Assembly: GCA_903869725.1 (NCBI GenBank)
Contig: CAIQAD010000029.1
Coordinates: 1 to 32,950 of the forward strand
Origin: an uncultured Alphaproteobacteria bacterium
GTDB lineage: Bacteria > Pseudomonadota > Alphaproteobacteria > Pelagibacterales > Pelagibacteraceae
Direction: 5' to 3'
Length of the DNA stretch: 32,950 nt
Shown in pieces: positions 25,241-30,753 of the stretch. The notes beneath the pieces were generated by a model. It had not been told where the DNA came from. It made no database searches and saw nothing but the letters and a program-made list of their open reading frames with translations. The stretch's first letter is position 1. Each line of letters opens with the position of its first letter. Both the position numbers and the translations under genes were made by a program.

Positions 25241-25604
25241 AGCCAGTTAGTTGAATGGTAGCTTTGATTATTTCAAAGAGGAAAGTCTGGGCTCCACAAG
25301 ATAACAGTGCCAGTTAATAACTGGCGAGGGCGACCTCAGGGATAGTGCCACAGAAAATAAACCGCCTTATCAAGGCAAGGGTGAAAAGGTGTGGTAAGAG
25401 CGCACCGGGCATTTGGTAACAAATGCCGCATGGAAAACCCCACTGGGAGCAAGACCAAATAGAAACAACAAGATTTAAATTTATTTAAATCTAGCCTAAT
25501 CTTGGGTGAGTTGTTTGGGTTGGTTGCTTGAGTTTATTGGTAACAATAAATCTAGATAAATTACCGTTTTTAATGACAGAACCCAGCTTACAGACTAACT
25601 GGCT
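25241..25604 (+). ncRNA. rnpB: RNase P RNA (type A)
   Basis: Catalytic RNA that matures the 5' ends of tRNAs. The ends pair as helix P1: AGCCAGTTAGT at 25241-25251 with ACTAACTGGCT at 25594-25604. Conserved blocks in order are GAGGAAAGTCTGGGCTCCAC near 25280, the CAGGG/GCCACAGAAA region, the TGGAAAACCCCACTGGGAGC stretch, CAAGACCAAATAG, and ACAGAACCCAGCTTACAG near the 3' end. Length of about 364 nt is normal. Exact ends are set from P1 pairing. No intrinsic terminator follows it, so its 3' end may be made by processing. Confidence 0.95.
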
Positions 25605-25669
25605 AAAAATAAAAAACTTATTTGCCAATCAAAAATCCCGAATAAATTAATTTAATAGAACAAATATAG

Positions 25670-25816: not shown

Positions 25817-26257
25817 ATGTTTATATCAACTTACGAAAACAAATTAGATGTGAAAGGAAGAGTTTCTGTGCCAGCTAGTTTTCGTTCGCACCTTTCAAGT
25901 TTAGGATATAATAGTGTGGTTTGTTACCCGTCATTTACAAATGCTTCAGTTGAATTTTGTCCACAAAATAGAATTGAAAGATTAAGTGAAAGCATTGACC
26001 ATCTAAGTCCATTCGAAGAAAACAGAGACGTTTTTGCAACCTCAATTCTTGCAGATAGTTTTCAACTAAATTTTGATTCTGACGGAAGAATTGTTTTGCC
26101 AAAAAAACTTTTAGATCATTCAGGTATCAAAGATAAAGTAGTTTTTGTAGGACAAGGAAAAACATTTCAAATGTGGGAACCACAAAAATTTTCGAAATTT
26201 AGAAATGAAGTAAGAAAAAAAGCAAAGACATTAAGATCAGACTTAAAATGGTCTTAG
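25817..26257 (+). CDS. mraZ: MraZ transcriptional regulator of the dcw operon
   Basis: A 146-residue AbrB-like ring-forming DNA-binding protein that represses the division/cell-wall operon in E. coli. Both repeats carry the DxxxR signature: DVKGR at 11-15 and DSDGR at 87-91. Length is typical. It leads the operon, with 34 bp to ftsZ. The ribosome-binding site is weak. Putative operator repeats lie upstream. Confidence 0.95.
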   Translation: MFISTYENKLDVKGRVSVPASFRSHLSSLGYNSVVCYPSFTNASVEFCPQNRIERLSESIDHLSPFEENRDVFATSILADSFQLNFDSDGRIVLPKKLLDHSGIKDKVVFVGQGKTFQMWEPQKFSKFRNEVRKKAKTLRSDLKWS

Positions 26258-26291: not shown

Positions 26292-27761
26292 ATGACAATA
26301 AAAATAAATGTACCTGAACTTAAAGAATTAAAACCAAGAATAGTTGTTCTTGGTGTGGGCGGCGCAGGTGGCAATGCAATTAATAATATGATTGAGCAAG
26401 GTATACAAGGTGTAGAGTTTGTAGCCGCAAATACAGACGCACAAGCTTTGAAATATAATAAAGCTGGTTATAAAATTCAACTTGGTACAAATTTAACTAG
26501 AGGTTTAGGAGCTGGTGCAAAATCAGATATAGGACAAGCTGCAGCAGAAGAAACTTTAAATGAATTAATTAATTTATTACAAGGCGCTAATATGGTTTTT
26601 ATCACTGCTGGAATGGGTGGAGGAACGGGAACTGGAGCAGCACCAGTAATAGCAAGAGCAGCTAAAGATTTAAATTTATTAACAGTTGCAGTTGTTACAA
26701 AGCCTTTTATATTTGAAGGACCCGGCAGATTAAAAGTTGCTGAAAGAGGATTAGAAGAATTGAAAAAATATGTTGATACTAGCATTATAATTCCTAATCA
26801 AAATTTATTTAAAGTAGCTAATGAAAAAACTACTTTCCCTCAAGCTTTTAAGATGGCTGATAACGTTTTAATGCAAGGCGTTAGAGGAGTAACTGATTTA
26901 ATTGTTAAACCAGGTCTTATTAATCTAGATTTTGCAGATATTGAGACAGTAATGAAAGGTATGGGCAAAGCTATGATGGGAACTGGAGAGGCAGAAGGAG
27001 ACAAGAGAGCAATTATGTCTGCTGAAGCTGCATTAATGAATCCTTTAATTGATGATTATTCTCTAAAAGGAGCAAAAGGTCTTCTTATTAATATTTCAGG
27101 TGGAAATGACATTACTCTTTTTGAAGTAGATGAAGCGGCAAATAAAATAAGAGCAGAAGTAGACTCCTCTGCTGAAATTTTAGTTGGATCAACTTTTGAA
27201 GAAGGATTAGGTGGGAAAATGAGAGTGTCAATAGTTGCAACTGGTTTAGGTGGCGAACTTGCATTAAATAATAAACCTGTAGTTAGCATGATGAGACATA
27301 TTAATAATAGAAATAATGGTTACAGCACTTCTTATAACCGACAACAGGAAGCTTTTGTTCCAAATTACGTTGCTCATCATAATTCACCAAGAGCAATGAC
27401 AAGTGGAGCAAATGCGCTTGATATGTATCAGGATATTAAAAATGAAACACAAATTAATTCTGAATCGCATATACAAAATCATCAAGAGAAAAACTCTATT
27501 ATTGCACAAGAAAATTTAGTGCAAAATAACAATGAAACACATGGAGTTAAGTTAGAAAATTTTAGTGCAATAACTGAAGAAGAAAATAAAAAGATATCAG
27601 ATGAAGTTGATTCTTTCCCTAAGTTGTTCTCAGAAGATGAAAATCTTAATAATAATGAAGAAAATTCTTCACAATTTTTTAAAGATTTAGGACACGATCT
27701 TACTGATGAAGAAAAATCTGATCTAGAAATACCTGCGTTTCTAAGAAGACAAACAAACTAA
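26292..27761 (+). CDS. ftsZ: Cell division GTPase FtsZ
   Basis: Tubulin-like GTPase of 489 residues forming the division ring. The N-terminal nucleotide site has GVGGAGGNA at 21-29 and the tubulin signature GGGTGTG at 109-115. The T7 synergy region includes [15 protein letters not shown]-terminal linker of about 150 residues, rich in Asn, Glu and Ser, leads to the conserved tail peptide [11 protein letters not shown], the site that binds FtsA and other partners. GGAG lies 7 nt upstream of the ATG. Its position between mraZ and rsmH is unusual: in most bacteria with a dcw cluster ftsZ is at the far end, after ftsQ and ftsA. Confidence 0.97.
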
Positions 27762-27768
27762 ATAATAT

Positions 27769-27784
27769 AGAAAAATTTTTTCTA
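27769..27784. repeat. 16-bp perfect palindrome abutting the rsmH start
   Basis: TAGAAAAATTTTTCTA reads the same on both strands and ends at the base before the rsmH ATG. It fills most of the 23-bp ftsZ-rsmH gap and leaves no Shine-Dalgarno. As RNA it cannot form a loop-free hairpin tightly, so it may matter as DNA, or simply reflect AT-rich composition. Confidence 0.6.
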
Positions 27785-27818
27785 ATGTCACTGGAATACG
27801 ATCATATTCCAGTGATGT
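27785..27818 (+). promoter_or_regulatory. Hairpin sequestering the rsmH start codon
   Basis: TCACTGGAATA (27788-27798) and TATTCCAGTGA (27805-27815) are perfectly complementary over 11 bp, with loop CGATCA. In RNA the stem can grow by G-U, U-G and A-U pairs at its base, taking in all three bases of the rsmH ATG (27785-27787 with 27816-27818). There is no T-run after it, so it is not a standard terminator. It lies at the boundary between ftsZ, a protein needed in thousands of copies, and the low-abundance downstream proteins, so it may reduce translation or stop 3' decay of the ftsZ message. The role is inference. Confidence 0.7.
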
Positions 27819-28798
27819 TAGAAGAGGTAAATCAAATATTGCATCCTTATGAAAAAGGACTTTATATAGATTGTACATTCGGCGCAGGTGGTTACACAAA
27901 AAATATATTAAAAAATAAAGAAGTCTCAGTTATTAGTATCGATCGGGATGAAAATATTAAAATTTTTTCAAAAGAGATCTTAAAAAAAAACTCAAATCGT
28001 TTTAAATTAATTATTGATAAATTTAGCAATTTAGAAGAAATTTTAAAAAAAGAAACAAATCCGCCAACAGCGATTATATTTGATCTTGGCGTGTCTTCTT
28101 TACAAATCGACAATCCGGAAAGAGGATTTTCCTATAAAAATCATGGATTATTAAAAATGACTATGGGTAACAATAATATTAATGCTTTTGATATTGTAAA
28201 TAAATGTAGTCAGGAAAGATTAAGGGATATTTTTTGGTTTTTTGGCGAAGAGAGAGAGGCAAATCTTATTGCAAAATTAATTGTGCAGAAAAGAGAAGAT
28301 AAAGAAATTGAAACAACTAAAGAATTAGCGGAAATAATATTAAGAGCTAAAAGATACAAAAATAAACAAAGCAAAAAAGATTGTTGTGCAAAAGTTTTTC
28401 AGGCAATTAGAATGGTCGTTAATCAAGAATTAACTGAAATTTATAAAGGTTTAATTAGTGCAATTAATGTTTTATCGAAAAATGGTAAAATTATAGTTGT
28501 TACCTTCCATTCTATTGAAGATAAGTTAGTAAAAAAAATTTTTGATTATTTTTCTAATCAAAAAAAAGGAGTATCTAGATATCTTCCTGAATCTGAAAAT
28601 AAAAAAAATTCAAATATTATTAAACTTATTAATAAAAAAGTCTTAATACCTTCTAAAAAAGAATTAGAAAAAAACAATAGGTCAAGATCTGCAAAATTAA
28701 GATCGGTTATTAAAATAAATGATATAAATTTTAAAATAGATAGATCTTTTTTAAATTTTGAGAAATTTTTTGAAATAGAAGAAAATTGCTATGCCTAA
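27785..28798 (+). CDS. rsmH: 16S rRNA (cytosine(1402)-N4)-methyltransferase
   Basis: SAM-dependent methyltransferase of 337 residues (formerly MraW) that modifies C1402 in the ribosomal decoding centre. Family blocks: HIPVMLEEV at the N terminus, the SAM-binding DCTFGAGGYTKNIL at about 29-42, FDLGVSSLQIDNPERGFSY, KVFQAIRMVVNQEL and VVTFHSIEDKLVK. The conserved HIPVML starts at residue 7, which fixes the ATG at 27785 despite the lack of an SD. The first ten codons also encode a strong hairpin. It overlaps ftsL by 8 nt (ATGCCTAA). Confidence 0.96.
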   Translation: MSLEYDHIPVMLEEVNQILHPYEKGLYIDCTFGAGGYTKNILKNKEVSVISIDRDENIKIFSKEILKKNSNRFKLIIDKFSNLEEILKKETNPPTAIIFDLGVSSLQIDNPERGFSYKNHGLLKMTMGNNNINAFDIVNKCSQERLRDIFWFFGEEREANLIAKLIVQKREDKEIETTKELAEIILRAKRYKNKQSKKDCCAKVFQAIRMVVNQELTEIYKGLISAINVLSKNGKIIVVTFHSIEDKLVKKIFDYFSNQKKGVSRYLPESENKKNSNIIKLINKKVLIPSKKELEKNNRSRSAKLRSVIKINDINFKIDRSFLNFEKFFEIEENCYA

Positions 28799-29057
28799 AA
28801 AAATTATAATCATGTGTTCTCTTATTATATTTGGAACTATTTTTATTTCATTTATTAAAAATAAAACAAAAGAAATTGAGAAACAAATATTAATTCTTAA
28901 TAAAGAAAATGAAGAATTAATTATTAAATTAAAAAATGAAAAATTAGAAAATGATTATTTGTCTTCCCCTGAAATAATAAAAGAATTAGCAAAAAAATTT
29001 TTACCCAAAGATTATGTAGAAATGAATAAGTCGCAATTTAAATATTTAAATGATTAA
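28791..29057 (+). CDS. ftsL: FtsL-like division protein
   Basis: A small bitopic membrane protein of 88 residues: short cytoplasmic N terminus, membrane helix at about 4-21, then a coiled coil at about 25-55 rich in Glu, Lys and Leu. Sequence conservation in this family is low, so the call rests on topology, size and position between rsmH and ftsI, where ftsL always lies. FtsL forms a complex with FtsB and FtsQ that activates FtsWI septal synthesis. Both junctions are 8-nt overlaps. It is short compared with the roughly 120 residues of E. coli FtsL. Confidence 0.8.
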   Translation: MPKKIIIMCSLIIFGTIFISFIKNKTKEIEKQILILNKENEELIIKLKNEKLENDYLSSPEIIKELAKKFLPKDYVEMNKSQFKYLND

Positions 29058-30753
29058 AGATAAAAATAAAAAAAATAATTTTTATTACTCGAACGATTCT
29101 AATAAGAATGAATCTGCTTTTTCTGATGTTAGTTTAATTTTGAAAAATAGAATTAATATTGTACTAAAAAGCTTTTTAATTATTATTTCTATTATTTTAG
29201 TTAGATTGCTATATCTTGGATTTAGTCATACTAATGAGATTAATTTTGATAATTTTATTTCAGAAAAAGATTACAATACAAGATTAAATATTGTTGATCG
29301 CTCAAATCTATTAATAGCAACAAGTGTAGACGTATATGATCTTGTTCTAAAAGTCGACAAAGCACGTAATTTATCAGAATTATTGGCAAAGTTAAAAAAA
29401 GAAAAAGAATTTAAAAATATTAACGTTGAAGAAATCAAAAAAGAAAGTTTATTAAAAAAAAGAATAGTATTAAAAAAAAAATTAGATCCGGAAGAGTATA
29501 AAAAAGCTGTTTTGCTTGGTGAACCTTCTCTCGAGTTAAATAAAAGACAGGTAAGAATTTACCCTCAAAGAAATTTATTTAGTCATGTTTTAGGACAAAT
29601 TGACGATGACTACAAAGGTATCTCAGGGATAGAAAGTTATTTTAATAGTAAAATTCTTAATACAACTGATCCTAGCAGTACATTTCAAATTACTTTAGAT
29701 TCTGTAATTCAATCTCAAATTAGACAAGAACTTTTAGAAGCAATAAATACATATTCTTCTAAGGGTGCAGCTGCACTTTTGATGAATGTTAATTCTGGTG
29801 AAATTATATCTCTAGTATCTTTACCTGACTTTGATCCAAATAGAAGAGAATCGTTAAATGATAATAAATTTTTTAATAAAATTACTTTAGGAACATATGA
29901 ATTGGGATCCGTATTTAAAAGTTTTGTAATTGCAGACGCTTTAGAATTAAAATTAGTAGATGAAAATACAATATTTGAAAATTTACAAAGCAAAACTTAT
30001 TGCGGAAATAAAGTATTCCATGAACATGATAAAAAAATTAAAAATTTAACTACTTCAGAAATTTTAATTAAATCATCCAATGTTGGTGCAATGTTAATAG
30101 GAGAAAAAGTAAATAAAGAGAGATATAAAAATTTTTTGACAAAAATAGGTTTATTTGATTTGCCCTCAGTCGAAATTCCTGAAAAAACTAAACCTTTAAA
30201 TGTAAATTGGTCTGAGTGTACATTAGACACAGCATCTTATGGACACGGAATAAGCACAACTCCAATTCAATTGGCATCAGCCTACGCTACTTTAGTAAAT
30301 GGAGGTTATAAAATTTATCCTACATTAATTAAGAAAAAAAACTCACATAAACAAGAACGGATTATTTCGTCAGACACAAGTTCACGAATGATTAAAATGT
30401 TAAGAAGAGTAGTGGATAAGACTGATCCAGCAGAAGGCACTGGAAGAAAAGCAGATATCAGTGGTTATTCAGTTATTGGAAAAACAGGAACAGCCGATAA
30501 ACCTGCAAAAGATACAAAAGGTTATACTCATCAATATATCAGCGTATTTGTTGCAATTTATCCTGAGGAAAAGCCTGAAAATTTGCTATTAATTATGATT
30601 GATGAGCCAAAGTCATCGATTACTAAGGGCATTTACCGAACAGAGTCTGCATGGAATGCTGTTCCTGTAGCAGGGTCAATTATAAAGAAAATTGGACCAA
30701 TATTAGCAGAAAAAAATTATAATATCGCTTTTAATGTCAAACAAGATAAATAA
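29050..30753 (+). CDS. ftsI: Septal peptidoglycan transpeptidase FtsI (PBP3)
   Basis: Class B penicillin-binding protein of 567 residues crosslinking septal peptidoglycan. A cytoplasmic tail of about 38 residues precedes one membrane helix (39-57). The periplasmic dimerisation domain includes RNLFSHVLGQID. The transpeptidase has nucleophile Ser287 and Lys290 (SVFK), Ser342-x-Asn344, and the KTG at 478-480. It overlaps ftsL by 8 nt and murE by 20 nt. All active-site motifs are intact; SVFK is a normal SxxK variant. Confidence 0.96.
   Translation: MIKDKNKKNNFYYSNDSNKNESAFSDVSLILKNRINIVLKSFLIIISIILVRLLYLGFSHTNEINFDNFISEKDYNTRLNIVDRSNLLIATSVDVYDLVLKVDKARNLSELLAKLKKEKEFKNINVEEIKKESLLKKRIVLKKKLDPEEYKKAVLLGEPSLELNKRQVRIYPQRNLFSHVLGQIDDDYKGISGIESYFNSKILNTTDPSSTFQITLDSVIQSQIRQELLEAINTYSSKGAAALLMNVNSGEIISLVSLPDFDPNRRESLNDNKFFNKITLGTYELGSVFKSFVIADALELKLVDENTIFENLQSKTYCGNKVFHEHDKKIKNLTTSEILIKSSNVGAMLIGEKVNKERYKNFLTKIGLFDLPSVEIPEKTKPLNVNWSECTLDTASYGHGISTTPIQLASAYATLVNGGYKIYPTLIKKKNSHKQERIISSDTSSRMIKMLRRVVDKTDPAEGTGRKADISGYSVIGKTGTADKPAKDTKGYTHQYISVFVAIYPEEKPENLLLIMIDEPKSSITKGIYRTESAWNAVPVAGSIIKKIGPILAEKNYNIAFNVKQDK

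Follow-up and report, generated by a model that had tools for sequence, protein, structure and literature searches.

A conserved mRNA structure in the first codons of SAR11 rsmH, a candidate translational brake behind ftsZ

We found that SAR11 bacteria carry a cis-acting mRNA structure in the first codons of rsmH, conserved by compensatory change across most genera of the group. Judging from the aligned sequences, its 3′ arm is set by the conserved HxPV(M/L) motif of RsmH, and the freely varying upstream 5′ arm tracks that motif by compensatory change. We give about even odds (roughly 0.5) to the reading that the structure is a built-in translational brake, which would keep RsmH and the products of the downstream genes low relative to FtsZ. 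Both the direction of this effect (repression) and its purpose (a protein ratio) are what we infer from the structure.

A long helix over the rsmH start codon

The window, by which we mean the whole 32,950-nucleotide stretch analysed, most probably comes from freshwater SAR11 (LD12), genus Fonsibacter. Genera are labelled g1-g17, arbitrary numbers of which only g1 and g4 could be given a probable identity, and the two families, which belong to one order, f1 (apparently Pelagibacteraceae) and f2. Gene order in the window is mraZ-ftsZ-rsmH-ftsL-ftsI, with ftsZ and rsmH assigned by NCBIfam equivalog models. The features are as follows.

25817-26257, + strand: mraZ (profile match)
26292-27761, + strand: ftsZ (ORF; NCBIfam TIGR00065, E 6.8e-116), stop codon at 27759-27761
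27762-27784, + strand: ftsZ-rsmH spacer of 23 nt, its last 10 bases part of the helix
27775-27798, + strand: 5′ arm of the 24-bp helix, including the rsmH start codon
27785-27787, + strand: rsmH AUG, pairing with 27816-27818 (A-U, U.G, G.U)
27785-28798, + strand: rsmH (mraW), 16S rRNA (cytosine(1402)-N(4))-methyltransferase, 337 aa (NCBIfam TIGR00006, E 5.4e-82)
27799-27804, + strand: hairpin loop CGATCA of 6 nt, from the fold; relatives differ in loop sequence and length
27805-27828, + strand: 3′ arm of the helix, codons for the (H)IPVMLEE motif of RsmH
28791-29057, + strand: ftsL (ORF call and profile match)
29050-30753, + strand: FtsI/PBP-like transpeptidase (ORF call and profile match)

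The reading frames of rsmH and ftsL, and those of ftsL and ftsI, overlap (28791-30753), and since each overlaps its neighbour, FtsL and the FtsI-like protein are probably translated serially behind rsmH. No Shine-Dalgarno-like sequence was seen ahead of the rsmH AUG on inspection of the spacer. Upstream, between an amidase-like ORF and mraZ, lies a bacterial class A RNase P RNA (25243-25606), whose neighbourhood matches that of P. ubique (PMC2704228). In 'Ca. Pelagibacter ubique' HTCC1062 the mraZ/RNase P RNA interval is 38796-39447 (PMC2704228), and the rsmH of genome G036 (35833-36789, minus strand) has a position that fits beside it.

An earlier note on this DNA had described exactly complementary arms at 27788-27798 and 27805-27815, with four G-C pairs, and a stem able to extend across the AUG by wobble pairs. 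Both observations are correct and the hairpin was understated: with G-U pairs included, 27775-27798 pairs with 27805-27828 over an uninterrupted 24 bp, and the 11-bp arms form the core of this predicted RNA helix. Folded in isolation, the 54-mer has an energy of -28.6 kcal/mol. In a 121-nt context the energy is -34.5, against -14.1 ± 2.9 in dinucleotide shuffles (z -7.0, 0/200). Under a synonymous null, in which the UTR and the protein were kept and synonymous codons alone were redrawn, the native value of -34.6 compares with -17.4 ± 3.75 and was equalled by none of 400 recodings; most other f1 representatives gave z values of -4.4 to -7.3 in this comparison. For the window's rsmH, opening is predicted to cost 25.2 kcal/mol and the AUG to be unpaired with a probability of about 0.01. 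An intrinsic terminator was ruled out, as there is no U-run and AAATCAAATATTG comes right after the 3′ arm.

Folding of mRNA around the start codon is a general determinant of expression. The rsmH site obeys the same physics but is distinguished by being kept family-wide through compensatory evolution and by being its genome's extreme. In the complete genome of Fonsibacter LSUCC0530 (G003), of the same genus as the window, the rsmH start region has the lowest folding energy of 1165 ORFs (-28.1; next -23.7, median -7.3) and the highest opening cost for -15..+15 among 1164 (21.9 kcal/mol, median 6.3); ORFs were called by length and starts assigned simply, making the ranks of genes other than rsmH approximate. 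The second-strongest start fold in G003, a 14-bp hairpin, lies among the first codons of a gene for a TRAP transporter of the DctM family (Pfam PF06808; L195:8417-10501, minus strand, equal to G003 748414-750501). The second-highest opening cost belongs to a redoxin-family gene (L211:5789-6367, minus strand, equal to G003 1065786-1066367), directly upstream of which is a GCCCCAA..TTGGGGT hairpin, perhaps the terminator of the previous gene.

Distribution and covariation across SAR11

We compared rsmH junctions from more than 110 SAR11 genomes. ftsZ lies upstream of rsmH in every SAR11 locus with enough flank, and mraZ lies directly upstream of rsmH in 28/30 other alphaproteobacterial loci. Four layouts could be told apart. 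Layout A (g1, g7, g9, g12) is a single hairpin with the AUG inside its 5′ arm. Layout B (g3, g4, g6, g8, g10, g11, g13) is a three-way junction whose closing helix contains or abuts the AUG; it comprises P0 (AATAAATG with CATTTATT, chiefly in g4), P1 (GCCACCAT with ATGGTGGC), P2, a hairpin across the HxPV codons, and P3 (GCTAA with TTAGC), with CCCCU unpaired between P3 and P1. In layout C the g5 hairpin begins near +15, just downstream of an open AUG. The g2 loci, also of layout C, carry another short hairpin on the AUG, formed by GATGAA and TTCATC, in 5/5 cases (L026, L031, L042, L044, L120); this unrelated hairpin suggests that the feature was replaced there, not lost. In layout D (f2) the ftsZ stop and the rsmH start share the sequence ATGA, and in g15 and g17 a hairpin runs from about +9; g16 and locus L069 have little or no helix. 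Genome bin G022 carries two different rsmH loci (L015, L052), both with the three-way junction, and is probably a mixed bin. In several Pelagibacter-type rsmH genes (L118-L157 and similar), GCCACCATGG right after the start codon equals the eukaryotic Kozak consensus, a match presumably due to the P1 helix and coincidental.

Predicted AUG burial and extreme opening cost are found in layout A and most of layout B. Genera of the hairpin and junction types have median opening costs of about 12-21 kcal/mol for -15..+15; the corresponding values in g5 and the f2 genus g15 are 7.9 and 7.6 kcal/mol, close to the average gene, the helix then lying at about +9 to +15. A stable predicted fold enclosing the start codon is found in the window's genus and in Pelagibacter, and not in g5 or f2. 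Most sequences of g1, g4, g5, g9, g12 and g15 have a helix with its 3′ arm on the HxPV codons that outdoes shuffled 5′ sequence (p ≤ 0.05), against 3/30 outside the order, where the median z was -0.7. The covariance model R1, built on layout B, gave strong matches (E below 1e-20) solely at rsmH in SAR11 genomes and weak matches only elsewhere; run against 115 class-wide genomes it gave no strong match, the hits being a single SAR11 rsmH at E 1.4e-4 and a weak one at E 0.05. The earlier note had staked its reading on relatives with the same gene order keeping the pairing. All Fonsibacter and most SAR11 genera do so, by compensatory changes, but L100, a locus outside SAR11, has ftsZ upstream and no hairpin. 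The idea that ftsZ before rsmH demands the hairpin is weakened by this locus, since gene order alone is evidently insufficient.

The compensatory changes were counted on alignments. For layout B, a structure-blind MAFFT alignment of 53 sequences was 91.8% paired across the cells of the named structure, a percentage biased upward because the structure was derived from members of the same set; the stronger evidence is that 115 cells had double changes where shuffles gave 43 ± 6 (0/500). Its covariation score was 0.207 (shuffles 0.115 ± 0.005), and slid registers reached at most 47% paired and 21 double-changed cells. Among the 23 sequences of layout A, both sides had changed in 5 pairs where shuffles gave 2.0 (0/500), and in 18 cells where they gave 6.6. 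Layout C (g5) is nearly invariant, so covariation says little there, and layout D has at most moderate support from counting one named hairpin; RNAalifold returned no consensus on the f2 alignment. Single cases illustrate the pattern: L023 pairs TACCGG with CCGGTA, L013 GACTGG with CCAGTC and L045 GCCGCT with GGCGGC, and in L034/L035 a Pro-to-Ser change (CCA to TCA) is accompanied by CTGG to CTGA. The AUG.AUG contact of layout A contains two wobble pairs that are unable to change and are present in 23/23 sequences; in g5, where the AUG is shifted upstream, those same two positions are Watson-Crick pairs.

Constraint on the codons also exceeds what the protein requires. Third positions of the layout B codons GCC, ACC, TCC/ACC, CCT, GGT and GGC vary little or not at all; those of the last Gly, of Pro and of Ser/Thr are the same in 56/56 sequences, Ser/Thr-Pro always being TCC/ACC then CCT. 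Usage of TCC, ACC and GGC is low in G003, at 6.6%, 11.8% and 14.3% of the codons for their amino acids. Homozygosity at fourfold sites is about 1.0 at most sites within the element and 0.3-0.55 just past it in layout B; in layout A it drops directly past the 3′ arm. The unpaired CCCCU inside the junction is invariant and confined to the Pelagibacter-type genera; hairpin-type genera have neither it nor a conserved loop.

A translational brake and other readings

According to the brake model, free 30S subunits would fail to load at rsmH because no Shine-Dalgarno-like sequence precedes an AUG that is paired. Synthesis of RsmH would be slow, its pace dictated either by how readily the structure breathes or by the supply of ribosomes from ftsZ; FtsL and FtsI would also be kept low, via the overlapping reading frames, and FtsZ would be made from the same mRNA at a high rate. 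The AUG would be buried by one long hairpin in Fonsibacter and its closest relatives, and by the closing helix of the three-way junction in marine Pelagibacter. The blocked start codon proposed in the earlier note holds up in these genera as predicted occlusion, but it does not extend to g5 and f2, where the AUG is open. A helix starting at about +9 to +15 lies within reach of the initiating ribosome. In layouts C and D this could mean a less effective brake or a different task for the structure, and roles for the hairpin by itself may apply to g5 and f2 with their unburied AUG.

That HxPVM codons happen to complement upstream codons, the pairing being functionless, is scarcely credible. The conserved protein motif does fix the 3′ arm and the g5 helix hardly varies, but a coding accident is contradicted by the synonymous-codon nulls and the compensatory changes, by third positions frozen up to a sharp element edge and by the first rank in the genome, which together speak for a selected RNA structure and bear out the earlier note's view that the pairing is unlikely to be accidental. 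A regulated switch or autogenous site deserves more weight, though we regard it as unlikely. Here a protein (RsmH or a ribosomal or assembly factor) or a small ligand would stabilise the structure and shut off rsmH, and the CCCCU and three-way junction of Pelagibacter would be the recognition site. The junction with its four helices and the Ser/Thr-Pro codons held in 56/56 despite their low usage fit this picture, comparable elements are known for ribosomal proteins (PMC4137082), and the invariant CCCCU, which a plain brake explains poorly and which counts against it, hints at the trace of a binding partner in Pelagibacter. Set against this are the absence of CCCCU and of a conserved loop from hairpin-type genera, the free exchange of Pelagibacter stem bases, the lack of convincing likeness to helix 44 of 16S rRNA, where RsmH has its target, and the failure to find a conserved, G-rich complement of CCCCUC nearby. 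Mimicry of helix 44, suggested by CCCCUC and CACCAUGG, found no support, the scores not being consistently above shuffles and the best 16S matches lying elsewhere. There is likewise a small chance that a SAR11-specific regulatory RNA family sits inside the rsmH coding sequence, an ancestral hairpin having become in Pelagibacter a junction whose CCCCU core senses a ligand or protein; if so, ribosome methylation, cell division and wall synthesis would be linked in highly abundant bacteria.

The remaining readings concern the mRNA and the ribosomes on it. As a site of the RNase III type or, as the earlier note also proposed, a barrier to exonucleases, the helix would guard the 3′ end of the ftsZ mRNA and uncouple the levels of the downstream genes. 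A near-continuous duplex of 24 bp in the window, stems free in sequence with pairing retained, and a g5 hairpin kept although the AUG is open all suit such a role. We find it doubtful, as many relatives have helices of 9-12 bp only, short for RNase III, placement is tightly tied to the start codon in hairpin-type and Pelagibacter genera, which a 3′ barrier does not need, and the unpaired CCCCU is invariant. Strict dependence of rsmH on ftsZ, with independent initiation blocked and only ribosomes finishing ftsZ able to open or enter the structure, seems to us quite improbable and shares ground with the brake model. It draws support from short spacers, 12-27 nt long in most f1 genera and replaced by the ATGA overlap in f2, from a buried AUG and from the missing Shine-Dalgarno-like sequence, but in the window 13 nt separate the end of the stop codon from the helix, and by the geometry of the ribosome footprint a terminating ribosome would touch the base of the stem without melting it.

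Relation to known RNA elements

The closest parallels are translational operators that sequester a start codon or RBS, such as the autogenous leaders of ribosomal proteins with the S15 regulators among them (PMC4137082), which likewise combine a cis structure at a translation start with covariation and low sequence conservation. The rsmH element differs in pairing mostly inside coding sequence, in having no known binding protein and in belonging to an rRNA methyltransferase gene of a cell-division operon. The mraW RNA motif (RF01746), described for Actinomycetales (PMC2864571), resembles it in its association with the name mraW (rsmH) only, and an Rfam cmscan of the window returned RNase P RNA and a tRNA only, with RF01746 not above its gathering score. 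SAM-V, from the same organisms, is likewise a translational control element found close to start codons (PMC2704228, PMC6429828), but no pseudoknot or aptamer was recognised in the rsmH element. The surveys of structured RNAs in SAR11 that included SAM-II and SAM-V screened intergenic regions, and ftsZ, mraW and rsmH are absent from their main texts (PMC2704228, PMC6429828). The earlier note knew of no such element in the dcw operon, and we likewise found none in Rfam or these two main texts, although supplements or subscription papers may hold an earlier description. The element was presumably overlooked because it lies inside protein-coding sequence and the surveys were intergenic; in compact genomes, intergenic-only screens miss conserved RNA elements whose sequence takes in a start codon. 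To our knowledge, few regulators are known from SAR11, whose cells are extremely abundant. A strongly preserved structure at their cell-division cluster is a concrete candidate control point.
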